DNA of 56,613 nucleotides, from positions 1 through 56,613 of IMG/VR virus record IMGVR_UViG_3300017769_000011, one strand, 5' to 3'. The notes beneath the pieces were generated by a model. That model searched no databases. It was not told the origin of the DNA and saw only the letters and a program-made list of their open reading frames with translations. This stretch comes from a virus. Shown here in pieces: positions 6,709 through 43,535 of the stretch (position 1 is the stretch's first letter; every line of letters starts with the position of its first letter). Made by a program: the position numbers and the translations under genes.

Positions 6709-7999
6709 ATAGAATAAATCGACTTGCATGGTTTGAGACCAATTGTAATATTGCGACTCTTTGGTGCAAGTCTTTTTCTATCTGTTGACACAACAACTCT
6801 GTTTCATGTCCTCGAAGTTGTTCCATATTGATTTTGGTGTCCTGCATAAATGGTGTTAGGTCAATGTCGTCTGGTAGATTTAACTTTCGAGGTTCGATAA
6901 AGAACTGGTCATCAATCATATATAAATCATCTTCGATATATCTTGGTTTGTCCCACAATTCACACATAATCTCTTTACCATCAAATTCATAGAAGTCATC
7001 TGGTAAGACTCCAAGACCATTCTCTTTGACCACACTATTCTCATCAACAAAGTTTACAAGTAAAGGAATGGCCGTATCGATTGAACCATAATGAGAATGA
7101 AACTTTACATTATATTCTCGTGTAAGGTCGGCAAAAGATTGGTCGAGTGCAAATCCACACATATTGATATTGACAGTTCGTTTGAATGGCCCTGAGAATG
7201 ATTCAAGAAAGTTCATCAGTTCTGCCTTGTTTGGTATCATAATGTGTGAGGGTGGATACTGAAGTAGGTCATGAAGTCCCTGCATCATATCTTCATTTTC
7301 TTCTTGACTGAGGTCATGACCTATTGCAAATGACCCGTGGACATGCGCTTTCATCAAGGCAGGTAAGAGTGATGTAAGTAAAGCAGATGCGTGATGTAAG
7401 TTTCTAGAATGAATGACCTTTGAATCGGACTTGAACTCAAATACATCTACATTGCGTTTCGATATTTCATATACCTCTTTGTGTGAAAACAAGATTGGTC
7501 GAGAGGGTTTTGTTGAACCACTAGTAGAAGATAAAAGAAATGGGTCAGTCGGTTCTATCGAGACATTGTAAGTCTGTTCAGGCCAGTGACCATTCTTATC
7601 TAGTTGAGGTGTCTTTCTTACATCAATTGATTTGCCACCATATAGTCTTATCATCTTATCGTGTAGACCATCATATATCCCTGACATGTCTAATGAGGAG
7701 TCGTAGATAAAATAATCAGATGGGCCGTGTAGTGCAAGTTTCGTATATGGAAGGGACAATTCAGTAGCAGGACTATCTAGAATAATTATTTTAAGACCAA
7801 GTTCTGCACATGCGAAGATAGATGCGACATGATAAGTTGAAACAGGTAAAATTGATATTGTAATGAGGTCACCTTTTTTTGCACCTCGGTCTGTGAGAAG
7901 TGCCTTGACCTTATCAATTTTTACACATATTTCAGATTTACTTTCGTTGTCAAAAATAATATCATCAACTATGATACTACGATTTAATGTGTTTTGCAT
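6662..7999 (-). CDS. ANL-superfamily adenylating enzyme, copy 2
   Basis: 445 aa. KKGDLITISILP and IFACAELGLKIIILDSPA match the N-terminal ANL fold. SSTSGSTKPSRPILFSHKEV (near residues 157-176) is a good phosphate-binding A3 motif, better preserved than in copy 1. HYGSIDTA stands at the YGxTE position. The A8 GR hinge is not evident and the C-terminal domain is reduced. It is therefore probably an adenylate former with an altered second half-reaction, or one needing a partner. Shared segments with the copy at 247-1665 (FACAELG, RNLHHASALLTSLLPA) show they are paralogues. It follows the GIY-YIG-like and carbamoyltransferase genes on the same strand, overlapping by 23 bp. Confidence 0.8.
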   Translation of the reverse strand: MQNTLNRSIIVDDIIFDNESKSEICVKIDKVKALLTDRGAKKGDLITISILPVSTYHVASIFACAELGLKIIILDSPATELSLPYTKLALHGPSDYFIYDSSLDMSGIYDGLHDKMIRLYGGKSIDVRKTPQLDKNGHWPEQTYNVSIEPTDPFLLSSTSGSTKPSRPILFSHKEVYEISKRNVDVFEFKSDSKVIHSRNLHHASALLTSLLPALMKAHVHGSFAIGHDLSQEENEDMMQGLHDLLQYPPSHIMIPNKAELMNFLESFSGPFKRTVNINMCGFALDQSFADLTREYNVKFHSHYGSIDTAIPLLVNFVDENSVVKENGLGVLPDDFYEFDGKEIMCELWDKPRYIEDDLYMIDDQFFIEPRKLNLPDDIDLTPFMQDTKINMEQLRGHETELLCQQIEKDLHQRVAILQLVSNHASRFILSKDYSPTKYPIHSED

Positions 8000-8387
8000 G
8001 AATCTTACATCCTATAAATTCATTATAATACATATCATTCAAAAGAACATCGTGTTCGAACTGGAGTTTGGCCTCGTAGTAAGAACACTCACCTTTGGTT
8101 TGACAAAGACGAAGTATCTCACGTTCAAATGATGCACCCTCTTCAATAAGAGTCTGAACAGTTTCACTTGAACCACAGTAGTCTCTCCAGTTAGATTCTA
8201 CTCGTGAAACTCTTTTTCTTTTTTTACCTTTAAGTGGTGGAAGTTTACGACTTGACCAAAAGAATTTTTTACCAATATATTTTTTACCATTTTTCAGATT
8301 CATCAAACAATAGACAAACCCTTGATAACTCTCTAATAACTCATCAGTCGGAAGAAACGTCTTCCCCTGATATGACCACTCGTGTAT
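7977..8387 (-). CDS. GIY-YIG-like nuclease
   Basis: About 136 aa. GFVYCLMNLKNGKKYIGKKF is a GIY-YIG pattern (first element FVY, second YIG, with the usual spacing). A basic stretch (LKGKKRKRVSRVESNW) and a YYEAK segment with the expected later Glu follow. Proteins of this kind are common in T4-like phages as homing or accessory nucleases. It overlaps the end of the carbamoyltransferase gene; an upstream ATG at 8420 would overlap by 77 bp, so I prefer 8387. No intron or split gene is visible beside it. Confidence 0.65.
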   Translation of the reverse strand: MHEWSYQGKTFLPTDELLESYQGFVYCLMNLKNGKKYIGKKFFWSSRKLPPLKGKKRKRVSRVESNWRDYCGSSETVQTLIEEGASFEREILRLCQTKGECSYYEAKLQFEHDVLLNDMYYNEFIGCKIHAKHIKS

Positions 8388-10113
8388 CATTTTTTTCAAT
8401 CCAGTAATATCTGTCTTCATGGTGTAACACTAGTGCATCAAGAGGTGTTCTCGCTAGCACTTTTAATGCACCTACTAGATTATTTATAATGGGTTCACCT
8501 CTACGATTAAATGACGTATTGAGAAGAACTCCATCAAACGCAGTGAGTATATCGTAGAATAATGGATTGGTATCTTGGTCTACAACGTGTAGACGAGTCG
8601 TGTTGTCTATGTGAGTGACGGCGTTTAGTTTGTTTTGATATCTTGGTTTTACCTTTGCGACATATGACATGTGTTCCATGTTATCAAGACTAGAGGACTC
8701 AAAATACTTGTTGCAATCTTCTTTGCGACAGGCAGCCGCATATGGTCTGAACCACTCTCTGAATTTTACAGTAGAATTTAGTTTTTCTTTTGCGGTTCTA
8801 ATAGATGCGTCACATATGATTGACCTGTGTCCAAGAGCTCTAGGCCCGACCTCAACATCACCTTGAATCAAACCAATGACTTTACCATCACGAAGTCTCT
8901 GTCCAATCTCTTCGATAGTAACTTCAGTATCAAAGAACTTAGGACGATTGTGTAGGTCTCTGTCATTCATCGAGAATGCAGGGCCTGCAAATCTAAGGTC
9001 ATAATCTGTTTTCTTGAGAAGATTTAGTCTACTCATTTCTCGGAACATCATACCTACAGACAATCCACCATCTTCAGGATTCGGTGGAACATACACATTT
9101 ATATCTGGAAATGTTTGTCTTACTTTCTCATTTGCTAGGACGTTCATTGCAGAACCACCAGTGAGAATGAGATTATTGTCATGGAGTTTGATGTCGTCTA
9201 TGAAGTGTTCTTTAATAATATCAATAAGTGTTTCTTCAAAAAAGGATTGAAGTGTAGCGGCAATCATATATTGAGATGCCCCATTGATTGATACTCTTCC
9301 TCTGTTTTCAGGAAACTTTTCAAGAAAGTGTGATGCAGTATATGCTCCAAATCTCTGGTCGTCTATACCAAACACCTCTTGTGCCATGGCCCGATAACCA
9401 TCACACGTTATAAGATTTTCACGATGTTTATGAAAGTCTCTATTTCTGTCAACAAGGGATTGAACATCTCTTGGTTTTGGACTAGCATATGCCGCCATTG
9501 CCATCACCTTACCAACCACACCTAAAGAATATCCATGAGATGTGTTAGCATAAACTTCGTTTAGTGGATATGAGTTTGATTGATAGAACCCTGATATATG
9601 ATATCCATAATTAGTTCCAGTTATCTGTTTCTTATTTCTAAATGTTGCTGTGCGAAAATGTGTATCGTCTCCACCATTATCGAATGATATCACAAAAGCA
9701 TTATCGAATCCAGACTGACCATATCCACACCAAGCATGTGCGTCATGATGATGAATGGAATCACTAGATTCGTAAGCGTCATAGGTTGTTATTATTTTAT
9801 CTTCAACGAAGACTTTGCCAGTAAAATCACCCAATGCACTAGTTCTCTCGACAACATGAGGTGTATCTGAAAATAGATTGGCACTATTAAACTTTATATA
9901 AACATTACTAAATTCTTTAGAACCATAGAGGTCTAATACACTATCTTGACAAAAAACAAAGTCTGAAGTTATCATGTTAGATTTTATGAATAATGAGTGT
10001 TTCACTCCTATGATGCGGTCAAACTCATACACAAACATCTTATCAGTGTCAGGTTCATATATGGTTATAGACGAGTCGTGAAAACCCATGTAGTATGTAA
10101 GTATCGGTTTCAT
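8344..10113 (-). CDS. Carbamoyltransferase (NodU/TobZ/CmcH family)
   Basis: 589 aa, normal family length. The N-terminal Kae1-like domain shows HHHDAHAW (metal-binding His), FVISFDNGGDDTH and ILTGGSAMN. The C-terminal YrdC-like part shows VEVGPRALGHRSIICD and VLLNTSFNRRGEPI. The family uses carbamoyl phosphate and ATP to make carbamoyl-adenylate and transfers the carbamoyl group to a hydroxyl, usually on a sugar or antibiotic. In phages the acceptor is uncertain; a modified base or a virion glycan are both possible. A TATAAATA-like element (GATAAATA on the coding strand, 10119-10126) lies only 5 bases before the ATG. Confidence 0.9.
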   Translation of the reverse strand: MKPILTYYMGFHDSSITIYEPDTDKMFVYEFDRIIGVKHSLFIKSNMITSDFVFCQDSVLDLYGSKEFSNVYIKFNSANLFSDTPHVVERTSALGDFTGKVFVEDKIITTYDAYESSDSIHHHDAHAWCGYGQSGFDNAFVISFDNGGDDTHFRTATFRNKKQITGTNYGYHISGFYQSNSYPLNEVYANTSHGYSLGVVGKVMAMAAYASPKPRDVQSLVDRNRDFHKHRENLITCDGYRAMAQEVFGIDDQRFGAYTASHFLEKFPENRGRVSINGASQYMIAATLQSFFEETLIDIIKEHFIDDIKLHDNNLILTGGSAMNVLANEKVRQTFPDINVYVPPNPEDGGLSVGMMFREMSRLNLLKKTDYDLRFAGPAFSMNDRDLHNRPKFFDTEVTIEEIGQRLRDGKVIGLIQGDVEVGPRALGHRSIICDASIRTAKEKLNSTVKFREWFRPYAAACRKEDCNKYFESSSLDNMEHMSYVAKVKPRYQNKLNAVTHIDNTTRLHVVDQDTNPLFYDILTAFDGVLLNTSFNRRGEPIINNLVGALKVLARTPLDALVLHHEDRYYWIEKNDTRVVISGEDVSSD

Positions 10114-10121
10114 ATCTCTAT

Positions 10122-10247
10122 TTATCCTATTTCAATCTCTGACCCACACATCGGACAATAAATTGGTTCTTCATCAGAGTCAACTACAGACACCTCTGTC
10201 TCTGTCTGGCATACAACACAGAATAATTCAAAGATGTCACCCTCCAT
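10122..10247 (-). CDS. Small zinc-ribbon protein
   Basis: 41 aa. Two Cys pairs, CVVC and CPMC, about 20 residues apart make a typical zinc ribbon. The acidic linker contains VDSDEEP. It starts within the stop of nrdB (TAATG) and ends just before the carbamoyltransferase. It may bind nucleic acid or a protein partner; nothing more can be said. Confidence 0.65.
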   Translation of the reverse strand: MEGDIFELFCVVCQTETEVSVVDSDEEPIYCPMCGSEIEIG

Positions 10248-11209
10248 TATGCCGCAACCTTATCCCAGCCCCAATCACCTTCCATACCATTTACGGAATA
10301 TTCTGTGACACGTTTCTCAAAGAAGTTGTCGTGGGATGCACCATTCAGAACCCAATCTAACCACGGCAGTGGATTGTCCTTGACACCGAACTTTGGTTTC
10401 ATACCAAGTTGTAGAAGTCTGCGGTCTGCAATGTGACGGATGTATTGTTTAACATCTTCCTCAGACAGACCTTCCATCTCCATACCATCAAAAGCAAGTT
10501 TGATGAAACGGTCTTCGAGTTTGACTACATCTTTTGCCATCTGATAGATTTTAGATTTGAGTTCATCATTGACGATACGAGGATGTTCCTCGCAGAACTC
10601 ACGGAAGAGTTTCGCATTACCCTGAACGTGAACAGTCTCGTCACGAATAGACCACTCAACAATTGTTCCCATACCCTTCATCTTACCATACCGTTGGAAG
10701 TTCAACAACATCACAAACGATGCGAACACTGACAGACCTTCGTTGAATACAGACTGTGCAAGTGCTAATGCAAGTCCTGTGTGACTGTTGATATCACCCT
10801 GTTTCATGAAGTCAATCTTGTCGGACATCTCTTTGTATTCGAGGAACATATGAAAATCCTCATCAGGTAAACCTAATGTGTCATTCAACAATGCATATGC
10901 ACGTTGGTGAACAGCCTCACGACCTGCAAACGATGATAACATATTACGGACTTCGTTGTTCTTAAACTTTGGTATCAGGAGTTCATGATAGTTCTCACCG
11001 ACTTGCACATCTGATTGTGTGAACAGACGAAGAACCTGTGTGATAAAGTTCTTTTCTGGTTCAGTCAGTTTGGTTTTCCAATCCTGAACATCTTCGGATA
11101 GTTCTGCTTCATCTTCTACCCAATGAATCTCTTCGTGTTTCTTTGATAAGTCTACTGCCCACGGATATAGAAATGGACGATATGTTTTTGAAAAATCTAG
11201 TAGTGACAT
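10247..11209 (-). CDS. nrdB: Ribonucleotide reductase, class I beta subunit
   Basis: 320 aa. Diiron ligands can be placed at Asp67 (TQSD), Glu98 and His101 (REAVHQRAY), Glu157 (FNEGLS), Glu191 and His194 (IRDETVH). Tyr105 is in the position of the radical tyrosine (EAVHQRAY), so a tyrosyl-radical enzyme is likely. Together with NrdA it reduces ribonucleoside diphosphates to deoxy forms for phage DNA. It lies 2 bp after nrdA, in one operon from the promoter at 13231-13259. Confidence 0.95.
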   Translation of the reverse strand: MSLLDFSKTYRPFLYPWAVDLSKKHEEIHWVEDEAELSEDVQDWKTKLTEPEKNFITQVLRLFTQSDVQVGENYHELLIPKFKNNEVRNMLSSFAGREAVHQRAYALLNDTLGLPDEDFHMFLEYKEMSDKIDFMKQGDINSHTGLALALAQSVFNEGLSVFASFVMLLNFQRYGKMKGMGTIVEWSIRDETVHVQGNAKLFREFCEEHPRIVNDELKSKIYQMAKDVVKLEDRFIKLAFDGMEMEGLSEEDVKQYIRHIADRRLLQLGMKPKFGVKDNPLPWLDWVLNGASHDNFFEKRVTEYSVNGMEGDWGWDKVAA

Positions 11210-15677: not shown

Positions 15678-16853
15678 TTATTTACCTCTACGATTATTCA
15701 TTCTTTCAAGAAATTCTTTTGCAGCCTTTGTGCGACCATCAAAAGGATTTTGATTTTCTGTATCTTTTCTATTTTCACCTGCAAGTTCACGGCGGGCAAG
15801 TTCAACCATTGATATAGAACCATCTTTAGTATCCATATCAATATCCTCTTTTACATTAGTGTCACCACTCTGATTATCTTGAGGACGTTTACCTGATTTG
15901 GGTTTCGTTCCATCTTTCTCAGCTTTGGTAGTTGTAGCAACACCATCCTCATAATTGTCTTCTATTTTCTTGTCAGACTTCTTATGAGCATTTTCAAATT
16001 CTTTAGACTTAGGAGACTCTTTATCATCATAGTCTTCACCATTGTTCTGGTCTTGCTTACGTTTTCCCTTATGCTCTGCTTCCCATAAACGTTCGAACAT
16101 AGAATTTAACTCGTCAATCTCTTCTCCGATTTTTGAGATTTCTGCTGTCTTATCGTCTGTTTTTGGGTTTCCATTTTTCTTTTTCTTTTTCTCATCATCT
16201 CCATTGGCGGTATCGGGTTTATCCTCACCATTCTCATCATCACCATGTTCGTCTTCCTTCGTTATTGCTTTACTGACCGCTTTTCTTCTCTTGTGAAGAT
16301 ACTCGTCAGATGAATCTACATCACCATCGTTATCGATGTCTTTGTCTTTACGGTCTTTGAACTTTTTCTTGACTGCTTTAGGTTGGACTTTATCCATACC
16401 ATCACCATCGTCAGACTTGTCGTTAGTGTTGTCTTCTTTTGAAAGTCTTGCTTCCTCTGCTTTCACATCATACTCTTTTCCACCAACTACAAATTTTTCA
16501 TCACCATTCTTTTTTGCAGCTTGTAGAGCCGCACCGAATGCATTACCTTCAGTTTTCTTTTTCTTCATATGATGGGCTTCTTCGATGACTTCCATGTCAG
16601 AGGCAGGAACTTTCTTCTCAAGACCATGCTTGAACTGAACGTCATACCACTCAACATTACCTTCATCATCAGGTATTGCGTGTGATTCATAGACAGGTTT
16701 ACCAAGACCCCATTCAGGGTGGTTGACTGTGATTGCACAGTTGTGGTCTTTGCTGTGACACAGTTCTTTTATTTCGTCATCCGTATAACCGATTTGTGGC
16801 GAAACTACGGATGCAAATGCCTCACCCAATCTTTTTATGTCAGAAGTTCTCAT
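15678..16853 (-). CDS. Low-complexity charged protein
   Basis: 391 aa. Residues 1-100 look folded (DIKRLGEAFASVVSPQIGY, HPEWGLGKPVYESHAI, WYDVQFKHGLEKKV, the last resembling an SH3-like beta segment). The rest is long, charged and repetitive (many DDGD, EKKKKK, DKDIDNDGDVDSSDE runs), with a possible calcium-binding Asp cluster. GGAG precedes the start. This composition suits a head-internal or scaffold-associated protein, but I cannot assign one. Confidence 0.5.
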   Translation of the reverse strand: MRTSDIKRLGEAFASVVSPQIGYTDDEIKELCHSKDHNCAITVNHPEWGLGKPVYESHAIPDDEGNVEWYDVQFKHGLEKKVPASDMEVIEEAHHMKKKKTEGNAFGAALQAAKKNGDEKFVVGGKEYDVKAEEARLSKEDNTNDKSDDGDGMDKVQPKAVKKKFKDRKDKDIDNDGDVDSSDEYLHKRRKAVSKAITKEDEHGDDENGEDKPDTANGDDEKKKKKNGNPKTDDKTAEISKIGEEIDELNSMFERLWEAEHKGKRKQDQNNGEDYDDKESPKSKEFENAHKKSDKKIEDNYEDGVATTTKAEKDGTKPKSGKRPQDNQSGDTNVKEDIDMDTKDGSISMVELARRELAGENRKDTENQNPFDGRTKAAKEFLERMNNRRGK

Positions 16854-17219: not shown

Positions 17220-17498
17220 TTATTCCCACATTTTTATCACGAGATTACCATAACCCTTTATGATACGATGATACTCCATCGCCTTTATCTCGTAAACTAC
17301 ACCATGTTCCATGATAATAGGTTTCTCGTTGTCTTTCTGCAACTTCCATGCAGTTCCTTCGATAACCATAATTTGTCTATCATTTTGGTCACGATGCCAA
17401 ACCAAATCCTCTTCATCAACATATTTTGAAAAGACTCTAATGTCTTTATTTTGATAATAAGGTTGCATGTAATCACCAAAAGAAGTTTCCACCACCAC
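17220..17498 (-). CDS. Small cupin-fold protein
   Basis: 92 aa. LVWHRDQNDRQIMVIEGTAW, then HGVVYEIKAMEYHRIIKGYG make a compact cupin-like beta-barrel with two His-containing strands. Single-domain cupins of this size occur in T4-like phages. A metal site with His in the first motif and His in AMEYHRI is possible. It overlaps the end of the gene upstream by 26 bp. Role unknown. Confidence 0.55.
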   Translation of the reverse strand: MVVETSFGDYMQPYYQNKDIRVFSKYVDEEDLVWHRDQNDRQIMVIEGTAWKLQKDNEKPIIMEHGVVYEIKAMEYHRIIKGYGNLVIKMWE

Positions 17499-18006
17499 TT
17501 AATCCTAATTGTTTTGCATATCTTGGTAATCGACACGCCCAATATCCAGCCTTTGTTTTATCGTTTTGTTGGTCACATCTATGACGAGCGGCAAATGATT
17601 TACGAGCCTGCTTGTCATTTAGTTTGACCTTCAATCCTGTGGTGTCACCCCATGTAACCTTCTTCACGTTACCACTTGAAGGGTCACGAACATACACATA
17701 GTATTTCTTCGGCCCACCTCTCTTCGGTTGATTTAGAGGCATATCTTGTTTGTCTTCTTCAAAGATACAATCTAGTGCGACATTTTCTCCACGCCATTCT
17801 GCGAACTCGCCGAGGTCAGACTCCATGATATCTATATCTGCGACATCTAACTCAAGGTCACCTGCATAATACTTCTCTCTTGCTTCACGAAAGTATTCGA
17901 AATACTTCTCTGACCCAACACGAAAAATGTTGTTTTCAATAAGAGAAGAGCAAGTACCACAACACTCATCAGTTCCACAATCTGTGTGTTCAGTAAATGT
18001 TTTCAT
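17473..18006 (-). CDS. DUF5872-like protein
   Basis: 177 aa. The C-terminal part YYVYVRDPSSGNVKKVTWGD, then ARKSFAARHRCDQQND and AGYWACRLPRYAKQLGLSG match the DUF5872-type domain seen in many T4-like phages. An N-terminal Cys-rich stretch (CGTDECCGTCSSL) is unusual and could bind metal. The first residues MKTFTEH resemble the T4 capsid-targeting start but lack the L/I-x-E cleavage pattern. It begins at the stop of the 411-aa gene (shared base). Confidence 0.65.
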   Translation of the reverse strand: MKTFTEHTDCGTDECCGTCSSLIENNIFRVGSEKYFEYFREAREKYYAGDLELDVADIDIMESDLGEFAEWRGENVALDCIFEEDKQDMPLNQPKRGGPKKYYVYVRDPSSGNVKKVTWGDTTGLKVKLNDKQARKSFAARHRCDQQNDKTKAGYWACRLPRYAKQLGLSGGGNFFW

Positions 18007-19241
18007 TATCTACCTAAGATTTTCTTGATGTCTGCGAGAGACCTGATGCTCTTTTGGAATTTCTCTTTTTCATTCGGTTTTGAAAGGCCATCAAAACGAG
18101 CCAATGTCGCTTTCGCTTGGTCTCTAGAAACTTTTCCTTTTCCTCTGTTAAATACAACTTCTGCTCCTGTTGGTAAATCAGCCGCCTTACGCAACTGCAT
18201 GATAATATTTTTAGAAGCAGCCTTTCTATCGTCATCGGTTGCTTCAGTGTCTTTGTCTTTTTTGGTGAGTGCCATACCTTTGGTTGCACCACGAGACTTC
18301 ATCGCTCTTCTCGCATCAGCAGCGGCACTTGCCTCATTCTTTGGTTTCTCACCACGTTCTTTCTTTGAGATTGCAATCGCAGCTTGTTGAGCAGGAGAGA
18401 CTGCTTCACCTAAACCTTGTTTAAGTTTGATTTTAGGTAATGCTCTTTGAAGATTTTTGAACTGAGCATCAGATAAGATAATTTGGCCACCAATTTCGCT
18501 TGCGCTTGTGCCTTTTTTGACAGTTATCTCAACTCCTAGTTTTCCTTTACCAGCCGCAAACCTTACTATTTGTATACCACCTTTATTGTATAAATCGGTG
18601 GCTTCATTAAGTTCGACTTCTTCAGCAAGCAACCAACCCTTTGAGAGATACTCTTTCTGTTTCGATTTGTCGATAACGATAACCTTGTGTCGTTTACCTG
18701 ACATCATCTTGACAACCATAACTTCTTTCTTAGGGTCAATCAACTGACGAACAGATTTTTCCTCTGCAACACGTTTTGCCGTGGCGGTTGCAATTGCCAT
18801 CTTCTTGTCCATAGGCATGTCAGGTTCGTCCTTTTTCATTGCTTTCGCTATTTCATTTCTTTTCTTTATCTCAGCGGGAGTGAGTGTTTTCTCTTCAACA
18901 GACTTAGACTTCTTTACCAAGGAGGTAACTGTATCTATATGTCCTTGATGATAATCATGGTCATCAGCACTTAGTCCTGCATCTGCAATTTTCTTTTTCG
19001 CAACATCAACCATACCTTTCATTTTTTCAAGGTCAGTCTCATCAATATTACCATCAAGACCTTTTCTTTCAATTGCAAGATAGTCATCTACTGCTTGGGC
19101 TGCACTAAGAATTTCTTCTTTATTGTCTTTGGTCTCGTAATCTTTTTTAAACGCCTTTATTGCGCCAGGACATAATTCCATATCGTCAAAGGTTTTATTT
19201 CCTATTTTTGTTTCTTCAAATAAATATCTAAACTTTTTCAT
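18006..19241 (-). CDS. Virion-associated type protein with capsid-targeting-like N-terminus
   Basis: 411 aa, charged and mostly helical, no catalytic motif seen. The start MKKFRYLFEETK resembles the T4 capsid-targeting peptide (MKTYQEFIAEA), with LFE as a possible head-protease cleavage site. Later segments include EVMVVKMMSGKRHKVIVIDK and SPAQQAAIAISKKERGEKPK, which recur in marine T4-like phage proteins. It shares bases with the genes on both sides (stop/start overlaps), so it is translated within the late operon. Confidence 0.55.
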   Translation of the reverse strand: MKKFRYLFEETKIGNKTFDDMELCPGAIKAFKKDYETKDNKEEILSAAQAVDDYLAIERKGLDGNIDETDLEKMKGMVDVAKKKIADAGLSADDHDYHQGHIDTVTSLVKKSKSVEEKTLTPAEIKKRNEIAKAMKKDEPDMPMDKKMAIATATAKRVAEEKSVRQLIDPKKEVMVVKMMSGKRHKVIVIDKSKQKEYLSKGWLLAEEVELNEATDLYNKGGIQIVRFAAGKGKLGVEITVKKGTSASEIGGQIILSDAQFKNLQRALPKIKLKQGLGEAVSPAQQAAIAISKKERGEKPKNEASAAADARRAMKSRGATKGMALTKKDKDTEATDDDRKAASKNIIMQLRKAADLPTGAEVVFNRGKGKVSRDQAKATLARFDGLSKPNEKEKFQKSIRSLADIKKILGR

Positions 19242-19507
19242 TACGCTAAGTCCTTATCGTGATTTAAGTTGCCCTTTTTCTTTTTTACAATAAATGCATT
19301 AACTCGTGCATATCCCCACTGAGAAGGTGTTGTGCCAGGCCTGTGTCCAGTTCTCCATGCGGCAACACCACGGTCAAAGACTTTCTTGAGTGTTCCATAA
19401 GAGATACCAGACTTCGATGCTTTCTTTGCAAGTGCCTCATTTTTTTCCTGAAGAGACTCGTCCAGTCTCTCTGCATAAAATTTTCTAAAGGTTTTTCTGC
19501 CACTCAT
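19241..19507 (-). CDS. DUF5824-like protein
   Basis: 88 aa. ASKSGISYGTLKKVFDRGVA followed by AWRTGHRPGTTPSQWGYARV is a highly conserved phage motif (DUF5824-type). The N-terminus, FRKFYAERLDESLQE, resembles the capsid-targeting peptides of its neighbours. It overlaps the nucleotidyltransferase gene by 4 bp and joins the next gene end to end. Function not established. Confidence 0.75.
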   Translation of the reverse strand: MSGRKTFRKFYAERLDESLQEKNEALAKKASKSGISYGTLKKVFDRGVAAWRTGHRPGTTPSQWGYARVNAFIVKKKKGNLNHDKDLA

Positions 19508-21000
19508 GGTTGTGTCTCTCTGTTTTTTTGTTGTGCTTTTGCGAGTCGTCTTGCATCTCTTGCTTTATCAAGAGTTGCACGATATTGTTTTTTCAAGTCT
19601 TCTTTATCATCTTTATAATCAGTTCTTATTTTTATAACCTCTGGGTCAGTCTCAGCCTTCAACTCAAGATGTTTTGGAAGAAGACCTTTCTTTATCATCT
19701 GATTCATATACTGTAGAACTTGTCTTGGAGATTCGACACCAAGTTCATGTCTCAGAAAATCATACGCACCTGATTGTCCTGCCTTCGGATTCTTACGTCT
19801 CCAATCAAGATACAATCGAACCGCCTTCTGATATTTCTTTTTGTTTACAATTTTATCCAATGCTTTATCTAAGGCTGGACTCAACACTCCTGTCGCAGAC
19901 TTCGTGCCAAACGCACCAGTGCTACCTATCTTTTCATCAAACATCTTCTTATATGCTTTGGTATACTTTGATGGTTTGGTCTCTGCACCCTTATCGCCAG
20001 GCGCTGGTTTGTATGCAGATGGGTCATCATCATCCTTTGCAGTGCCTTTCTTGAAATGTGCGGCACGTTTCTTCTTGGTTGACTTTGACATGTCATCGCC
20101 TTCAGCATCCTTCGCATAATACTTTGCAGGCTGTGTTCCTTTTACATCCTTACCAATCTCTTTGTCCTGACGTGCTTTCTTCTCGACCAGTTCTACATCG
20201 TCTAACCACTTGCGATATCTTTTTTGATTCACTTCTACAATGACATAGTTCGCACCAAGCATAGAGACAATACCAACCTCTCCACTTTCTTTGATAATAA
20301 CATCATCACCGATTTCAAACAAATCACCTGAGACATATGCCTCACGAGTATCGTCTAATTTACCTAAATCGATATGACGTTTGAAAGAACGTTCTTCTTT
20401 GATACCAAGTCCTGCTCGAACTTTGTTAAAGAGTGTGCGAGTATCTTTGTCAGAAAATCCTTTGGGAACACCCTGTGCGAATGCCGCATAGTCATTATCC
20501 TTTGCTGACGCACGTTGCTTGGATGCAGACATTCCTTCAACACCCTCTGCATCAGGGTCACGTTGACCAGCAGATACAATATTGATTGTCTCGAAGTTAT
20601 AAAAACCATGTTTGGCTTTCTTACCATTGTATTTTTTCAATAGAGTTTCGAACTCATTCAAACGGTCTTGACCGACAACCATGTTGATTTTACGATATCC
20701 CAAATCATAAAGTTTTGCGGCTACGTCAAAAACATTACGAATCTTTTTATCGGCAATGATATTGCGACCATGTTTGGGAAACATCTTACGAAGAGTTTTG
20801 ATTTTATCAGAATAAGACAATGGGTCTTTCTCACCTGTTGTCTGAGATACAAAGATTTTATAATCTGCACCTCTCGCCTTTTTAACAATCGTATCGATAA
20901 CTTTACCATGACCAATTGTCGGAGGATTCATTCTACCAAATGTAAAGAATACCTCACGTTCCGACTCAACCAGATACGATTTAAAATTCTTAATTACCAC
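19504..21000 (-). CDS. Nucleotidyltransferase (HxGH cytidylyltransferase-like) with long tail
   Basis: About 498 aa from a GTG at 21000; the open frame extends to 21072, but an earlier start would overlap the upstream gene more. FFTFGRMNPPTIGHGKVIDT holds the TxGHG variant of the HxGH nucleotide-binding motif. INMVVGQDRLNEFETLL and a MSASKQR segment (like the ISSTxIR motif) follow, so an adenylyl- or cytidylyltransferase core is likely. The last 300 residues are charged; KSGISYGTL-type repeats are absent, but GQSGAYDFLRHELGVESPRQ looks folded. The start VIKNFKSYLVESE resembles the T4 capsid-targeting peptide with an LVE cleavage site. Confidence 0.75.
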   Translation of the reverse strand: MVIKNFKSYLVESEREVFFTFGRMNPPTIGHGKVIDTIVKKARGADYKIFVSQTTGEKDPLSYSDKIKTLRKMFPKHGRNIIADKKIRNVFDVAAKLYDLGYRKINMVVGQDRLNEFETLLKKYNGKKAKHGFYNFETINIVSAGQRDPDAEGVEGMSASKQRASAKDNDYAAFAQGVPKGFSDKDTRTLFNKVRAGLGIKEERSFKRHIDLGKLDDTREAYVSGDLFEIGDDVIIKESGEVGIVSMLGANYVIVEVNQKRYRKWLDDVELVEKKARQDKEIGKDVKGTQPAKYYAKDAEGDDMSKSTKKKRAAHFKKGTAKDDDDPSAYKPAPGDKGAETKPSKYTKAYKKMFDEKIGSTGAFGTKSATGVLSPALDKALDKIVNKKKYQKAVRLYLDWRRKNPKAGQSGAYDFLRHELGVESPRQVLQYMNQMIKKGLLPKHLELKAETDPEVIKIRTDYKDDKEDLKKQYRATLDKARDARRLAKAQQKNRETQP

Positions 21001-21436
21001 TACCGCCGCCTTTTTTCTTTTCAATCTCTTTCTTACGAATCTTCGGAAGCATCTTCCTCGCAAGTTTATCAATCTTTGGTTTCATCTTATCTAGACGTTT
21101 CTCAATATCTGTTCTTCGTGCTAATCCAAGGTCACTCTTATCTTGACCCTTTGTTATTTTCTTAGCAAAGAAGTTCCTTGCTTGTTTGGCAGCTCTTTTC
21201 TTGAGAACATCAACAGATGCAACTTTTCTCTCTGCTCTCTTACGACCAAGAGCAATTTTTGCTTTCATCTTTTTCATCTGACGAGATTTTGCCATGCGTT
21301 GTTGCACAGTGAGTGCCTCATAAGGGCCTTCACCATCATCACGTTTACGTCTTTTGGCATTGTATGCTAACTGACCATCACCTGTTTCAGTGTAGTCAAC
21401 GGTAAGAAAATCTTTAAAACCTAATGGTTTTGGCAT
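20990..21436 (-). CDS. Very basic conserved phage protein
   Basis: 148 aa. TVQQRMAKSRQMKKMKAKIA followed by GRKRAERKVASVDVLKKRAA and TKGQDKSDLGLARRTDIEKR make a highly positive helical protein that recurs in marine T4-like phages. It ends GGGSGN. It starts MPKPLGFKDFLTVD, a weaker version of the capsid-targeting pattern. Its charge would suit packing against DNA in the head. It overlaps the nucleotidyltransferase start. Confidence 0.6.
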   Translation of the reverse strand: MPKPLGFKDFLTVDYTETGDGQLAYNAKRRKRDDGEGPYEALTVQQRMAKSRQMKKMKAKIALGRKRAERKVASVDVLKKRAAKQARNFFAKKITKGQDKSDLGLARRTDIEKRLDKMKPKIDKLARKMLPKIRKKEIEKKKGGGSGN

Positions 21437-21441
21437 TTGGT

Positions 21442-22662
21442 CTACCTCTTTGGTTTATCCCATCCCTTCAGCACATCAGGACTGAAGTTGTTATACGAAA
21501 ATTCAAGGCGGTCAACCAACTTGACCGCATCACCACCTAATTTGTCAATCGCAACAAAACCTTCCGCACCTGTAGTCTTGTAACCAGTTTTGGTTTTTAC
21601 AAAAGCGTCATAGTTTTGTATACTATTAAGTTTATTTATAAGTTTTAATTTTGCTAATACAATATTTTTCTGTAGTTCAAACATATTGACGAGAGACTTC
21701 TTGTTCTTGTTTGAAAAAAAGGTGAGAATATCGTCTAATTTCTTTTGTTGAGTCGCTTTACCCTTCTCACTCTTTCGTTTTTCTATCTCTTTTGCGAACT
21801 TATTCTCAATCCATTTGATAAGACCTGTGACATGTCTACGACTATCAGGTATCATCTGTCCTTCACGCACATATGTATTGTTGTATTGTTCGATGAGTTG
21901 TGCAAGTTCTTGATTGTTCTCTAGTTCACGCAGTGTCGAACCTGCAATCTTATTGAATATCTTACCAGCCGTTGACAGGTTCTTGGTAACTTCGGCAGTC
22001 TCTTTGTCATCCATAGTTGCACCACCGACATCACGCAACATCGCATCTGCTGAGTAAACATTCTTAGATGACTTGAACTTAGATACATCAACACCATACT
22101 TTGCTTTCATCGACTCGAAGTCTTTACCTGTATAGGTTGTGTGCCAAACAATACCAATCTGTGCTTTGCGTATGGTATCTGCCTGTTCGTATGGAACAGC
22201 ATAGATAATTGTATTGGGGTGAAAGGTTGTGTATTTCTGTCCATCGATTTTCTTCGTCTCAACGTCTCCTTTTGAGAACAAGAAGTCTCCTTGAATAACA
22301 CCCTTGATATTAAGGTCTGGTAGATACTTCAACGCAGCCTTCATCTTATCTGCAAGGTCACCAGACATATCTGCATCAATCTCTGCATTGGTTTTATAGA
22401 CCTTTGGATTCTTAGCAAAGATACCTTTCTTTGCGACAAAGAACTCACCATCACGAGGGTCTTGACCACAAAAGATTGCAGGCGCACCATCCCACTTGGT
22501 AGATAGTTTACTTTTAGACTGACCACCTAACATATCACGCAACTCACGCAATGCATTGATTGCCTGTCGTGTTCCATTCACACCACCATAGAGAACCTTA
22601 TCCTCGATATGGGTCATGTGAGTGTTCTTCTGTTCTGTTATATAATTTCTAAAACCAACCAT
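21442..22662 (-). CDS. DUF6267 protein with nucleic-acid-ligase-like motifs
   Basis: 406 aa. STKWDGAPAIF (near residue 57) carries KxDG, the lysine-adenylation motif I of DNA/RNA ligases and capping enzymes. VIQGDFLF (near 141) resembles motif III, and TGAEGFVAID (near 368) resembles motif IV (EGxV). DRLEFSYNNFSPDVLKGW closes the protein. The N-terminus, FRNYITEQKNTHMTHIEDKV, matches the DUF6267 family of T4-like phages and includes a possible capsid-targeting peptide with ITE cleavage site. Ligase-type catalysis is inferred from the motifs only. Confidence 0.7.
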   Translation of the reverse strand: MVGFRNYITEQKNTHMTHIEDKVLYGGVNGTRQAINALRELRDMLGGQSKSKLSTKWDGAPAIFCGQDPRDGEFFVAKKGIFAKNPKVYKTNAEIDADMSGDLADKMKAALKYLPDLNIKGVIQGDFLFSKGDVETKKIDGQKYTTFHPNTIIYAVPYEQADTIRKAQIGIVWHTTYTGKDFESMKAKYGVDVSKFKSSKNVYSADAMLRDVGGATMDDKETAEVTKNLSTAGKIFNKIAGSTLRELENNQELAQLIEQYNNTYVREGQMIPDSRRHVTGLIKWIENKFAKEIEKRKSEKGKATQQKKLDDILTFFSNKNKKSLVNMFELQKNIVLAKLKLINKLNSIQNYDAFVKTKTGYKTTGAEGFVAIDKLGGDAVKLVDRLEFSYNNFSPDVLKGWDKPKR

Positions 22663-23236
22663 TGTCGTAATCTTCTTTATATATTTTTCTTATATCATCT
22701 ATCATCTTGAGTGATAAATCTTTCTCTTTCCAAATCGATTTTGATATTGTAGCCTTTACTCTATCAAGTTCACAATCAATCTCATTCTCAATAAATGTCA
22801 CACATTCCTCAAAGTTTTCAAAATCAAATACCTTATCATACTGACTTAGGTCACCCCCACATTCATATTGAGAACGAAACTCTGGTCTTAAAGGCCAGTA
22901 TTTTCCACCATTTATAATCTTTCCTATTTCCCATTTAGTCCAATCTGGAACTTTTTCATTATATCTTGCTTTCATAAAACCATAAAAGTTTATTGAAAAA
23001 TTCACTGCACTTAAATATCTTTTTATCGGGTCTCTCTTTATCGTTATTCTTTTTACATTCCGAAACTCATTTGAGACCATAGAATTTTGTAAAGTCAAGT
23101 CATACCAGTTTGAGGTAACTTGTTTACTCTCAATGCCATTTAGATGTGACCACATAATCTTGAGTGATGACGAACAATTTTTCGGTATCAAACAAACATC
23201 TAAAACATCATCAAAGTATAATACTTCACTAACCAA
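22649..23236 (-). CDS. Sulfotransferase-family protein
   Basis: 195 aa. LIPKNCSSSLK (residues 16-26) is a 5'-phosphosulfate-binding loop (PKxxSSS type). RITIKRDPIKRYLSAV (near 63) is the 3'-phosphate-binding strand with Arg-Asp-Pro. Such enzymes move sulfate from PAPS to a hydroxyl on a glycan, lipid or small molecule. It overlaps both neighbours by 8-14 bp. It is out of place among virion-type genes, far from the glycan island at 32.9-51.8 kb, but may act in the same chemistry. Confidence 0.7.
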   Translation of the reverse strand: MVSEVLYFDDVLDVCLIPKNCSSSLKIMWSHLNGIESKQVTSNWYDLTLQNSMVSNEFRNVKRITIKRDPIKRYLSAVNFSINFYGFMKARYNEKVPDWTKWEIGKIINGGKYWPLRPEFRSQYECGGDLSQYDKVFDFENFEECVTFIENEIDCELDRVKATISKSIWKEKDLSLKMIDDIRKIYKEDYDNGWF

Positions 23237-24539
23237 CTTTTAATCCATTATAAAGTGTTTTCAAACTCCATTGTTTAAGTTTACCACCTGAACTCGAACG
23301 AACCGACATTGCAAGCGTTACCTTCTCGTCTCCCGACCTCAATTCAATAAACCAGTTCTGTTTCGAACTCCGAGATGAATATGACTTCACGAATCTAACC
23401 TGTGGTAGAAATACTCCGAGTTGGTCTTTGTCTGTTATCTCTTCATATGTTCCACTCTTCTCTATTGCTTTAATAACAATAGTCGGAACATCAGGTGCAT
23501 CTCGAAGTATTGCCTCTTTGATATAGTTCAAAGTCGCATCTTTGTTCTGATTAAATCTTTCAACCAATCCCTGACGAACAATCTCCAGATATTCATCATA
23601 GAGTTTGTTTTGTTCTTTGGTCGGAAGTTTATTGATGGTTGCGATTGCTTTTGTTTTATCAGGGTGACGGCCGCCTTTGCCACCATCGTGATTACCATAC
23701 TTAGGAAAATCAGGTATCTTTGAATAAACCTTATCATATACTTTTTTTCGAAGGGCCTCTTTACCTTTAGCGTCATTAAAAGAAGGGCCACTTCTCTCGT
23801 TCACAAATACAGTATAATGATAAGTGTTGAGTTGAGGTTCTTTGGTTTTCTTACCACCAGACTTGAGTGATGCACCAAGCATCTTTCCATCTTGATATTC
23901 AATAAACATATCGCCTGGATGATTTTGTGGGACACCTTTTGGTTTTGCTCGATATCCCCAATACACTCTTCGTATTGGTTTATCTTTATTTTCATCAATC
24001 AAATAGTTGTAAATCGAAATTGCAGCCTTCATCTTTTCGAAATATTTGGATGATGAGTCTGCTCTCTGTAATGTATCTTTTGCGGCCGCTTGGTCTTTAG
24101 CACCTACACATTTAAGTTTGCGAGTATCAACTGAGAGTAATCTTTCCATTAATTTGTCAATGTCTTTGTCAGACATACCTGTCGGTTTGATTTGACGTTC
24201 AAACATAATACAGGGAAAGAGTTCGGTGATGCTTGCATTGAGTGTAGATTCTCCCATGCCGCCCTTTTTGGGTTTTACGAGAATTATAAATTTACGACCT
24301 TCATGTTCTCCGTAAATAGGGTCAACCGAAGATGCGCTTGTTTCTCTTTTTTCAGCACTAATACCTGCATTCTTCAGTCTACGAAGAATCTCATCTCGGT
24401 CAGTTTCACGGTCATCAGACGTAACACGAAATTCTATTCTCGATTTCTCACTTGCAGATTTCTGAGTATACTCAAATCCTGAAAACACATCTCCAGCGAG
24501 TTCAAAGTCTTCGACTAAGTAGTGATTAAAAGATTTCAT
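23229..24539 (-). CDS. Nuclease-like virion-associated protein
   Basis: 436 aa. GDMFIEYQDGKMLGASLKSG (near residue 215) looks like the Asp...Ser-x-Lys core of restriction-like nucleases, and RRVYWGYRAKPKG precedes it. The N-terminus MKSFNHYLVEDFE closely resembles the T4 capsid-targeting peptide, with LVE as a likely cleavage site. A late promoter stands 36 bp upstream. The nuclease call rests on one motif and is tentative; the family is present in other marine T4-like phages. Confidence 0.6.
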   Translation of the reverse strand: MKSFNHYLVEDFELAGDVFSGFEYTQKSASEKSRIEFRVTSDDRETDRDEILRRLKNAGISAEKRETSASSVDPIYGEHEGRKFIILVKPKKGGMGESTLNASITELFPCIMFERQIKPTGMSDKDIDKLMERLLSVDTRKLKCVGAKDQAAAKDTLQRADSSSKYFEKMKAAISIYNYLIDENKDKPIRRVYWGYRAKPKGVPQNHPGDMFIEYQDGKMLGASLKSGGKKTKEPQLNTYHYTVFVNERSGPSFNDAKGKEALRKKVYDKVYSKIPDFPKYGNHDGGKGGRHPDKTKAIATINKLPTKEQNKLYDEYLEIVRQGLVERFNQNKDATLNYIKEAILRDAPDVPTIVIKAIEKSGTYEEITDKDQLGVFLPQVRFVKSYSSRSSKQNWFIELRSGDEKVTLAMSVRSSSGGKLKQWSLKTLYNGLKVG

Positions 24540-24575
24540 CGATATCCCATTTGTTACAAAAGTGTATTATAACAC

Positions 24576-24583
24576 TATTTATA
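24576..24583 (-). promoter_or_regulatory. T4-type late promoter, minus strand
   Basis: TATTTATA on the plus strand (TATAAATA on the minus strand), 36 bp before the start at 24539. It overlaps the last codons of the upstream RecB-like gene. It would start the late block that runs down to the holin. Confidence 0.65.
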
Positions 24584-25259
24584 ATAAAACGGAAGTGTTA
24601 TTTTCTTTATTGTATTGTTCAATGGTATCTTTGAGACTATTGACCCAATTATCACGATGTTCGATAAAGACTTGAGGTTCATCCATACCATCAACAGAGA
24701 TAATTGTAACCAACTGAGTGATAGGCATATCTGTGCGTTCTTCCCACATGATTGCATAACCAGACTCTTGCATGAAGTAGTTCTTAATCATTGAGGGTGT
24801 TTTACGTTTACGACTTGTCTTGAAGTCAATGATAGATAACTTACCATCAAACTCTGCAACGCAGTCAACACGACCAGCAAGACCTAGATGTGTAGAATAA
24901 AGTGGGGCTTCCTGTGCATATACTTTTCCAATACGTTCATCAAGAGTTGGTTTCATAACAAGAAACGACTCAATGATATCAGGTGTATATCCATCTTTGA
25001 AGTTCGGGTCATTGTCAATATACTTCTCGATGATTTCGTGAACCTTTGTGCCTCGTGATGATGCACGATGAGAGATACGATTGGCTTCCTCTTCACCGAC
25101 ACGTTTACGCCATGCGGCGATACCTGCACGACTTAGAATGGATAAGACTGTCGTGATAGAAGGAAGGTTGACTCCTTCGGGTGTCACATACTTACGACCA
25201 CCATCAACATTAATGGTTTCCATTTCAGTGAGTTCTGTTTGTTCATGTATAAAGGTCAT
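24579..25259 (-). CDS. RecB-like PD-(D/E)XK exonuclease
   Basis: 226 aa. LAGRVDCVAEFDGKLSIIDF followed by KTSRK has the G-x-x-D ... D-F-K-T arrangement of the PD-(D/E)XK core. GTKVHEIIEKYI is the upstream helix usual in RecB/Cas4-type nucleases, and YFMQESGYAIMW is the Q-x3-Y motif. It would degrade or process DNA ends in the host cytoplasm. The start at 25259 makes an ATGA overlap with the upstream gene; an extended frame to 25358 has no support. Confidence 0.8.
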   Translation of the reverse strand: MTFIHEQTELTEMETINVDGGRKYVTPEGVNLPSITTVLSILSRAGIAAWRKRVGEEEANRISHRASSRGTKVHEIIEKYIDNDPNFKDGYTPDIIESFLVMKPTLDERIGKVYAQEAPLYSTHLGLAGRVDCVAEFDGKLSIIDFKTSRKRKTPSMIKNYFMQESGYAIMWEERTDMPITQLVTIISVDGMDEPQVFIEHRDNWVNSLKDTIEQYNKENNTSVLL

Positions 25260-32917: not shown

Positions 32918-33717
32918 TGGAACGTATACAATGGCGTGGCACATGGGGTATAGGTGACTCCATGCGTGGTTTGAACACAGCACATCAACATGCTCACGAT
33001 ACTAATCAAGAAGTTCATCTTGAGATGCACTGGCCTCATGGTGAGGACTATCTAACACATCCTAAAGACCCTGAAACAATTGTTCAAAGAACAGATTGGA
33101 TACACTCTCGTTATCATAACCATGAAAGAGTGAAGTTGACGCATGTCTTTGATTCTGATTTGTTTTGTTCTGATAACAAGAATCCTGATAATAACAAAGC
33201 TCGTTTTTACTTCGAGTCAAATACATATGAACCAGATGGTTGGCCGTCATGTCACTGGATATTCTCCAAAGACCAATTTGTCCCTTCAAAGAAGAAAATA
33301 GTAGTCTGGACACCGACTCATAATAGTGAACCCCCAAGAAAATGGAAAAGAGTCTTGACAAATGAGGATTGGTATGATATAATTAAGATGCTTTCTTGGG
33401 AGGGTTGGATAACTGTAGAATTAACTTACAGGACTCCGATTCGTGATGCATATAAACAAATCCAAGAAGCAAACTTTATTCTGTGTTATGATGGAATGTG
33501 GCACTACATTGCAAGAAACTTTGCAAAACCAATGCTCATTCCTTCATGGGAAGGTGTAACTACTTATAACACTCCTAACGCAGTGAAGAAACATAGTAGT
33601 TGGAGATATAAGAAGGCTATCGGTGATGGCTCTCCAGATGTCTTTGCACCTACTCTTGGTATGATGAAAACAACAGCAAACCAATATCTAAAGAGAATAA
33701 AGAAATATTATGATTGA
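32917..33717 (+). CDS. Putative glycosyltransferase (GT-B/heptosyltransferase-like)
   Basis: 266 aa. It opens RGTWGIGDSMRGLNTAHQHA, a start like GT9/heptosyltransferase folds (GxGD). ANFILCYDGMWHYIARNFAK then PMLIPSWEG resembles the nucleotide-sugar site (DSGxxHxAxxxxKP) of that family. It starts the glycan island and overlaps DUF6165. Similar to 50394-51167 in layout. Confidence 0.6.
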   Translation: MERIQWRGTWGIGDSMRGLNTAHQHAHDTNQEVHLEMHWPHGEDYLTHPKDPETIVQRTDWIHSRYHNHERVKLTHVFDSDLFCSDNKNPDNNKARFYFESNTYEPDGWPSCHWIFSKDQFVPSKKKIVVWTPTHNSEPPRKWKRVLTNEDWYDIIKMLSWEGWITVELTYRTPIRDAYKQIQEANFILCYDGMWHYIARNFAKPMLIPSWEGVTTYNTPNAVKKHSSWRYKKAIGDGSPDVFAPTLGMMKTTANQYLKRIKKYYD

Positions 33718-34063
33718 GATACAAGTCAGTATGGGTGAGTTGATTGACAAACTCACTATTCTAGAAATAAAACTAGATAAGGGTCTACCTGTTCAGTCTG
33801 AGTTTGAGATACTAAACGAAGCATATATTCCAGACTTTAAGATTGAGCATCTAAAGAATATTCTCAAATCAATCAATGCACAACTATGGGAGATTGAGGA
33901 CGAGAAGAGATTGTGTGAAAAGACTAAATCATTTACATCTGATTTTGTTACTCTTGCAAGACTAGTGTATATGTTAAATGATGAAAGGGCTCGTATTAAG
34001 AAACTCATAGATAAACTAAGTGATTCTAAAATAACAGAGCATAAAAGTCACCATGAATATTGA
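33710..34063 (+). CDS. DUF6165 family protein
   Basis: 117 aa. IQVSMGELIDKLTILEIKLD followed by a helical NILKSINAQLWEIEDEKR matches DUF6165, small proteins usually encoded next to glycosyltransferases. Function unknown; a partner or regulator of a glycosyltransferase fits the setting. Overlaps both neighbours by 8-11 bp. Confidence 0.75.
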   Translation: MIEIQVSMGELIDKLTILEIKLDKGLPVQSEFEILNEAYIPDFKIEHLKNILKSINAQLWEIEDEKRLCEKTKSFTSDFVTLARLVYMLNDERARIKKLIDKLSDSKITEHKSHHEY

Positions 34064-35009
34064 TAGAGCAGTCATCGAGATAAATGGTGGGTGTAATTAT
34101 TCTTGTCAGATGTGTCCTCAACAAAGAGGTGCGGATGGTAAGCCAGGCAGACATAAAGACTTTCTGAGAAAGATGTCTCTTGATGAGTTCGAGGACAATA
34201 TTGCGGATTGTGCAGAACATGGACTTCGTGTTGTGAATCTAGATGGTTCAGGTGAAGCAACACTTAATTCTAATCTACCAAATTATCTTGAGATAGTGAG
34301 AAAGTATGGATGTGAGTCTGTAATCTTTTCAAACGGATTCAGAATGCAGGGTCAGTTCATGAAAGATTGTGTTGATGCAGGACTCAACTTCTTTCGTTTT
34401 TCAATCATAGGAAGTAACAACGAAGAATATCAAAAGTGGATGAGTTCCCCTAATTTTGAGAAGGTCATTCAGAACGCAAAGGATATGAACGAATATGCAA
34501 CCGATAAAGATTGTAAGGTCGGAACATATCATCTTATTACCGACACTAAATATCAAGAGGAACAATTAGAACGATACAAAGGTATTGTAGAACACATTGG
34601 TTGTGTAACCGAAATCTGGAGAATGCACAACTGGTCTGGTATGTATCAACCTTTGTATAATAGAGAAGGGGAGAAAAAAACCTGTGGTAGACCTTTTAGT
34701 CCTGATATCGTTATTCGTGCTGGGGGGCTTGATGGTAAATTTGGGGCAGTGGCTCCTTGCTGTCAAGTTCTGGGAAGAGATGAAGAAGCCGTGCTTGGTT
34801 ACACGTCTGAGAATACTATTGAAGAAATTTGGTATGGTAAAGAATACACTAACCTACGAGAAGGTCACATTAATGGAGACTATCCTGATTATTGTCGTGA
34901 TTGTGATTTTCTCATTGATGACACTGAGGTTTTAGTTTATACAAATCACGGCCGTTCTCGTTATCATATGTATGGAACTGAGTTTACATTAAATGACTAT
35001 CGAAAATAA
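34053..35009 (+). CDS. Radical SAM protein with SPASM-like C-terminus
   Basis: 318 aa. CNYSCQMC (near residues 14-21) is the CxxxCxxC motif for the [4Fe-4S] cluster. VVNLDGSGEATLNSNLP is the SAM-binding GGE-like region. C-terminal cysteines (KTCGRPF, APCCQVLG, YCRDCDF) form a SPASM-type auxiliary cluster site. Such proteins do difficult radical modifications of peptides or sugars. It lies between DUF6165 and a glycosyltransferase-like gene, so a glycan or a precursor sugar is a likely target. Confidence 0.85.
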   Translation: MNIDRAVIEINGGCNYSCQMCPQQRGADGKPGRHKDFLRKMSLDEFEDNIADCAEHGLRVVNLDGSGEATLNSNLPNYLEIVRKYGCESVIFSNGFRMQGQFMKDCVDAGLNFFRFSIIGSNNEEYQKWMSSPNFEKVIQNAKDMNEYATDKDCKVGTYHLITDTKYQEEQLERYKGIVEHIGCVTEIWRMHNWSGMYQPLYNREGEKKTCGRPFSPDIVIRAGGLDGKFGAVAPCCQVLGRDEEAVLGYTSENTIEEIWYGKEYTNLREGHINGDYPDYCRDCDFLIDDTEVLVYTNHGRSRYHMYGTEFTLNDYRK

Positions 35010-38725: not shown

Positions 38726-38728
38726 TAG

Positions 38729-38744
38729 TATAAATATATAAATA
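38729..38744 (+). promoter_or_regulatory. Tandem T4-type late promoters (two TATAAATA)
   Basis: TATAAATA at 38729-38736 and again at 38737-38744, end to end, 20 bp before the start at 38764. Two exact copies suggest strong late expression of the diiron protein. Confidence 0.65.
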
Positions 38745-38763
38745 GATTGAACAGGAGAAAATA

Positions 38764-41328: not shown

Positions 41329-41353
41329 CAATACCAGTTATATAAGTTATAAT
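41325..41353 (+). promoter_or_regulatory. sigma70-type promoter (consensus)
   Basis: TTGACA at 41325-41330, 17 bp, TATAAT at 41348-41353: full consensus on both hexamers. It precedes the start at 41387. Confidence 0.8.
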
Positions 41354-41386
41354 CAAAGATATTATCTAAACGTAAGGAGATTTATT

Positions 41387-41704: not shown

Positions 41705-41790
41705 TGTATCAATATAATTGGAAACATATCATAGTCGCAGTTGTAACCTTTATAGTTGGTTATATCATAGGTATAGGAAATGTAGGTTGA
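41704..41790 (+). CDS. Tiny single-TM protein
   Basis: 28 aa. HIIVAVVTFIVGYIIGIGN is a near-ideal membrane helix. It starts in the stop of the gene before it and ends over the TTGA start of the gene after it, so it is probably translated. Too short for the usual gene callers. Confidence 0.45.
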   Translation: MYQYNWKHIIVAVVTFIVGYIIGIGNVG

Positions 41791-43523: not shown

Positions 43524-43535
43524 AGGAGAATAGGT

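Follow-up and report, generated by a model that had tools for sequence, protein, structure and literature searches.

The locus described here raises the question of why a series of phage proteins with dissimilar bodies, several of them enzyme-like, should open with nearly the same short peptide ending in glutamate. The window (the whole stretch of 56,613 nucleotides that was analysed, a 56.6 kb fragment of one IMG/VR virus record) has as its nearest annotated relatives Phage C48C1 and the Melnitz methylotroph phages, both Kyanoviridae, and its remaining matches are mostly to T4-like cyanophages. The tagged genes form a minus-strand cassette that reads from 24539 to approximately 15.7 kb, with ribonucleotide reductase genes further downstream; in the relatives that were checked, a gp41-type helicase, a gp61-type primase and ribonucleotide reductase are close by. 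A tagged kinase gene (52468-53148) lies elsewhere, and it and all cassette features given below are on the minus strand. An extended run of plus-strand genes (33710-51801) encodes products of ~180-450 residues, one of which (34053-35009) opens with a radical-SAM-like motif, CNYSCQMC.

Every open reading frame to which the earlier note had attributed a shared N-terminal peptide is present at the coordinates given there, and a scan of the first 18 residues of ~90 non-overlapping open reading frames with the expression [FYL]xx[FYLHM][LIVMYF]xE found matches only in genes that it had named. When gene starts in the window were scored with a profile of the leader (constructed from relatives as described below), seven tagged genes stood far above the best unrelated gene start (score 2.9). 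The highest scores belong to the leaders of the kinase (MLKFRNFIQE, 53119-53148, score 24.6), of the first cassette protein or slot-1 protein (MKSFNHYLVE, 24510-24539, score 20.4) and of the DUF6267 protein (MVGFRNYITE, 22633-22662, score 19.6, with FRNYITE at residue 4 counted from the first ATG of 21442-22662). Lower scores were obtained for MKKFRYLFEE (19212-19241, score 7.6 for gene 18006-19241, also a match to the expression), for MKTFTEH...SSLIE before the RVGSEKY body (17935-18006, score 6.4), which makes 17473-18006 a degenerate member of the set, and for the DUF5824 leader MSGRKTFRKFYAERLDESLQE (19445-19507, score 5.2). Most leaders fit the L/I-x-E cleavage rule that had been proposed for them, but the tag of 19241-19507 reads FRKFYAE and its SLQE is a second, later site, giving two candidate cleavage sites (YAE and LQE). 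The gene 20990-21436, previously counted as a weaker member, has a variant leader, MPKPLGFKDFLTVD (21395-21436, score 11.6), that retains both targeting aromatics but is missing the cleavage Glu. The same variant, FKDF[IL]xVDY, recurs in this family among IMG/VR loci; such proteins are perhaps packaged with no cut at that point. In the AlphaFold2 models of the slot-1 and DUF6267 proteins, both leaders are of low confidence (pLDDT 37 for residues 1-10 of the former).

The cytidylyltransferase gene 19504-21000 was missed by the profile scan because its longest open reading frame carries 24 extra residues; read from its nearer start, its leader is (V)VIKNFKSYLVE (20965-21000). The C48C1 counterpart begins MIKNFSQYLLE from a GTG start that was overlooked in the database record: the annotated start of this cytidyltransferase (23449-24858) passes over the GTG, so that the leader is lost. 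Misannotation of this kind may hide tags in other records.

The bodies behind these leaders are diverse. The slot-1 protein (23229-24539, phrog_2496, 436 aa), which fills the cassette's most variable position, has no Pfam match, and its AlphaFold2 model has no significant PDB match by Foldseek; it contains a GDMFIEY..LGASLK motif like that of PD-(D/E)xK nucleases, and the expression D..SLK is found in 9/32 tagged slot proteins versus 4/333 others, which is only suggestive of a nuclease. The DUF6267 protein (21442-22662, PF19782, Pfam E = 6e-107) has in alignment an invariant KWDG motif, as in nucleotidyltransferase/ligase families; a Foldseek search of the PDB with its AlphaFold2 model gave no significant match, and a profile search against PDB sequences gave nothing usable. 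Because the fold searches ended without a significant match, the nuclease and ligase labels stay tentative. Of the cargo labels given earlier, "ligase-like" and "nuclease-like" derive from short motifs only, and Foldseek found nothing significant.

The DUF6267 gene is nearly always followed directly by that of a small basic protein (20990-21436; the +1 gene in 58 loci), and then come a cytidylyltransferase/NMNAT-like protein with extra C-terminal modules (19504-21000, PHROG E = 7e-65), a DUF5824 protein (19241-19507, Pfam E = 2.5e-18) that has its own gene in the window but in some relatives forms one protein with the cytidylyltransferase, a modular, linker-rich protein with an internal EEVELNE site in its translation (18006-19241, no match in PHROG and Pfam searches), and the last tagged protein of the cassette (17473-18006, phrog_7595 E = 4e-12). 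The translation of 15678-16853 is an acidic protein with a DIDNDGDVDSSDEYLHKRRK module, and a similar module is present in ORF92 of cyanophage S-SCSM1, which was detected in virions. A galactose-3-O-sulfotransferase-like gene (22649-23236) is inserted within the cassette, and the expression scan found no tag in it. The unlinked gene 52468-53148 encodes a P-loop kinase (AAA_33 / zeta-toxin / polynucleotide-kinase-like by PHROG/Pfam). Ten cargo proteins had no match in PADLOC. In Melnitz (accession MZ577097), a RimK-like ATP-grasp protein (82-1131) carries the leader TQKFSQFITEEP, suggesting another packaged enzyme.

Among 80 relatives collected around DUF6267 (879 open reading frames), the strict motif is found within the first 30 residues of 149/879, whereas randomly placed internal windows give 5.3 (maximum 11). 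Its carriers belong to at least 24 families that share no detectable similarity beyond the leader, in which four positions are fixed. Over 66 loci, the gene preceding DUF6267 is drawn from 27 families, roughly half of them with the tag. The helicase, ribonucleotide reductase and other neighbouring genes of the 80 relatives have no tag; the motif scan that the earlier note had called for marks cassette genes and not early genes, in the window as in its relatives.

The profile (12 columns) was constructed from 140 distinct leaders of 24 unrelated families of metagenomic relatives, with T4 and S-CREM2 data excluded from training. Applied to T4, it ranks gp61.1, IPIII, IPII and IPI at the top of 283 open reading frames, and this result persists when whole training families, including the large ones, are omitted. 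Amber suppression of the IPIII leader by Black's group showed targeting to depend on residues 4 and 7 and processing on residues 8 and 10, with the gp21 cut falling after L/I-x-E (PMC9026906). The information peaks of the profile, Met1 aside, are at these same targeting and processing residues (F4, 4.19 bits; F/Y7, 2.94; L/I8, 2.56; E10, 3.97), and because the expression that collected the leaders had fixed the core positions in advance, the weight of the comparison rests on the recovery of the T4 internal proteins. The best tag score in T4, exceeding those of the known internal proteins, is that of gp61.1 (18966-19130, MKTFKEFIKEDM, 54 aa), whose gene lies between genes 61 and 41, the same place as the cassette in S-CRM01; 1,343 phage records contain a homologue of it. 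By its leader, gp61.1 is a candidate overlooked internal head protein.

The virion proteomes of cyanophages allow the tag to be compared with what is actually packed. For S-CREM2 (accession OR473000), 52 virion proteins have been listed with gene coordinates (PMC10665884), and the best six profile matches among its 219 proteins are all on this published list of proteins detected by mass spectrometry, none of them known structural proteins (hypergeometric p = 2.6e-6). They are a cytidylyltransferase (gp154, MKNFSSFLTEA), gp136, a kinase (gp14), a SAM hydrolase (gp6, a SAM lyase by Pfam), gp13 and gp12, two of the six being unknowns; the "Cas9" label of gp12 is unsupported, for Pfam gave no match. 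Untagged genes adjoining the tagged ones are mostly absent from the same list. A profile trained on small variable families alone gave noisier results in S-CREM2 (3 of the top 6 and 5 of the top 8 were detected by mass spectrometry), and a rank test on all of its non-structural virion proteins was only weakly significant (p = 0.03), as one would anticipate from the fact that most virion proteins carry no tag; the virion mass spectrometry sets contain untagged proteins as well. The S-CREM2 authors allow that some virion enzymes are co-purifying contaminants (PMC10665884).

Cassette ORFs 89-93 of S-SCSM1, including an NMNAT-like enzyme (MKSFLQFLKEA) and a slot-1 type protein, are annotated in its record (MK867354) as virion proteins detected by mass spectrometry, and the kinase of S-CRM01, detected in virions (cited in PMC10665884), has the leader MISFDQFLSEK and tagged neighbours in a cassette of g127-g130. 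Homologues of 19504-21000 were detected in the virions of both S-CREM2 and S-SCSM1. The earlier expectation that tagged proteins would be found in purified virions is borne out in homologues (S-CREM2, the NMNAT-like enzyme of S-SCSM1, the kinase of S-CRM01), rather than in the window phage itself. Tag-like sequences also occur away from the N-terminus: gp12 of S-CREM2 (7704-10313) and g128 of S-CRM01 (6702-7253) each have a W-rich start followed by an internal tag (RFASFMAEA and LDSFIKEA, respectively), and the 69-residue virion protein ORF93 of S-SCSM1 (41627-41836) has RTFKEFLEYIE at its C-terminus.

The predicted cleavage sites are conserved where the leader meets the body. In 69/70 distinct DUF6267 leaders, [LIV]xE stands directly ahead of the conserved body; in relatives of the P-loop kinase, E is found just before the body in 20/20 and [LI]xE in 15/20, and this extends to kinases that form the end of a chain exceeding 400 residues. 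In most contigs DUF5824 has a gene of its own (tagged in 50/67), and in 30 it is fused behind another protein; of these fusions, 21/30 have [LI]xE in the same register, versus a background of 27%, and 28/30 have [LIMV]xE. Melnitz joins in one chain three products that the window encodes separately, and the joints contain FQLDE and SSLIE; there the module of 17473-18006 makes up the C-terminal portion of the cytidylyltransferase polyprotein, and SSLIE is at its joint. Such a pattern of sites would be expected of a polyprotein processed by the head protease. Two cleavage sites are present in several leaders, as in propeptides of giant phages (PMC9026906). Internal E-x-[ED]-[LIV]-x-E motifs in the cassette were too sparse to be informative (6 versus 5 matches).

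A gp21-type protease (Peptidase_S77), which the earlier note had wished to see together with a core scaffold, is encoded in cassette-bearing genomes: it is present in 8/8 IMG/VR records of more than 120 kb that carry the cassette or a tagged kinase, as well as in the two cyanophages with studied proteomes (S-CREM2 and S-SCSM1), and is absent from three records that are all fragments of less than 104 kb. An annotated scaffold or core protein is present in C48C1 and Melnitz. The gp21 of the window phage lies outside the 56.6 kb fragment. The prohead protease of Melnitz (125945-126592) has a scoring YITE site at its own N-terminus, in keeping with the self-processing that has been suggested for T4 gp21.

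T4-type late promoter boxes on the minus strand precede both tagged loci of the window, one (TATAAATA, 24576-24583) 36 bp ahead of the first cassette gene and the other (55000-55007) just before the operon that holds the tagged kinase. In 37/76 loci the first tagged gene has such a box no more than 90 bp away, compared to 50/817 other genes (p = 6e-21; since the sequences are related to one another, the p-values given here overstate independence). CTAAATA was considered as an alternative late promoter box and was rejected, its frequency being no higher than chance.

Of the other explanations, the best-surviving, itself unlikely, is that the tagged proteins belong to the prohead core (scaffold) and serve head assembly alone, being packaged and cut but not delivered to the host as effectors. 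ORFs 89 and 92 of S-SCSM1 are linker-rich and consist of repeated modules, resembling core material, and the T4 core proteins gp22, gp67 and gp68 are likewise cut by gp21; where a domain can be recognised, however, the tagged bodies mostly resemble enzymes (NMNAT-like, kinase, RimK ATP-grasp, SAM lyase), and the turnover in slot 1, with its 27 families in 66 loci, is unlike that of a structural part. It is very improbable that the leaders, short and amphipathic as they are, serve some other N-terminal function (binding to the membrane or RNA polymerase, or a bias in translation start) and that virion detection reflects contamination by abundant late proteins, the concern raised by the S-CREM2 authors (PMC10665884): a profile made without T4 recovers the T4 internal proteins, the E at the body boundary is conserved even in fusions, distant from translation starts, and the untagged neighbours in S-CREM2 are mostly absent from its listed virion proteins. 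Hardly credible is a resemblance due to common gene ancestry with no present sorting role, which the side-by-side position of the genes and the modules repeated between some cassette proteins might favour, and which was rejected because the carriers' bodies fall into unrelated clusters (at least 24 dissimilar families with four leader positions fixed) and the unlinked kinase bears the same tag, in agreement with the earlier preference for a sorting tag.

A T4-type capsid-targeting sequence that frees and delivers a mixed cargo is, as a complete explanation, held with high confidence. The matches of the profile to T4 internal proteins and S-CREM2 virion proteins, the key residues, the conserved sites, the protease and the late promoters make it very likely that the tag is a working one and that tagged proteins are packaged. 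T4-type late promoters would drive late transcription of the cassette genes; the leader (F4, F/Y7, L/I8, E10) would bind the prohead core, and the shell would close around core and cargo. The gp21-type protease would then cut after L/I-x-E, freeing the cargo inside the head; this predicted cleavage of the leader is likely. At infection the cargo would exit with the DNA and act ahead of phage gene expression. From comparison with T4, we infer its injection into the host; the binding to the core and the individual enzyme roles are likewise inferred. The cargo would comprise the cytidylyltransferase/NMNAT-like enzyme, the DUF6267 and DUF5824 proteins and the P-loop kinase, together with rapidly replaced proteins in the first slot, many with a nuclease-like motif. 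In some relatives several cargoes are fused in one chain, which keeps a cleavage site at each joint and could thus be processed as a polyprotein.

The principle is that of T4; the presence of the tag outside the T-even group and in marine phages, the late cassette with its hypervariable first slot, and the tags kept in fusions appear to be new. We are inclined to think, with some reservation, that marine T4-like phages have a head-import code readable from sequence, that the late cassette encodes hypervariable injected enzymes, some derived from polyproteins, and that the same code flags overlooked internal proteins such as T4 gp61.1. That the first cargo is replaced so quickly points to an arms race as a possible cause. 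A short code that predicts the packed proteins of very abundant ocean viruses as well as T4 would allow candidate injected effectors to be listed from genomes and their roles in early takeover or counter-defence to be tested, and the tag may be usable for loading foreign proteins into marine phage heads. NMNAT-like proteins and kinases recur in cyanophage virions, where packaging could not be separated from contamination by the authors; the tag offers a mechanism for these puzzling enzymes.

The NMNAT-like proteins and kinases in the virions of S-CREM2, S-SCSM1 and S-CRM01 are among the closest known counterparts of this system, with a homologous cytidylyltransferase and the same N-terminal tag; the available text of PMC10665884 and PMC9602691 describes enzymes in cyanophage virions and reports no packaging mechanism or tag, and a literature search covering few subscription journals found no such targeting sequence reported for cyanophages. 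The inner-body or ejection proteins of the giant phages phiKZ and SPN3US also have leaders that are cleaved by a head protease and probably target the head (PMC5694885, PMC9026906), but these leaders are often far longer and their cleavage motif is S/A-x-E or A-x-E. The ADP-ribosyltransferase Alt of T4 is likewise a head-packaged enzyme that gp21 cleaves and that is injected; unlike the marine proteins, it is missed by the profile, is processed at both ends and is a different enzyme. There is also a close likeness to the capsid-targeting sequence of T4 IPI, IPII and IPIII (Mullaney and Black 1996, reviewed in PMC9026906), in leader length, the four key residues, the L/I-x-E cut site, the gp21-type protease and the placement of one leader before unrelated bodies. 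The T4 internal proteins are small, whereas the marine cargo includes large enzymes in a different, Kyanoviridae-like phage family, encoded in a cassette whose genes are ordered, whose first slot varies and whose fusions retain their internal sites.
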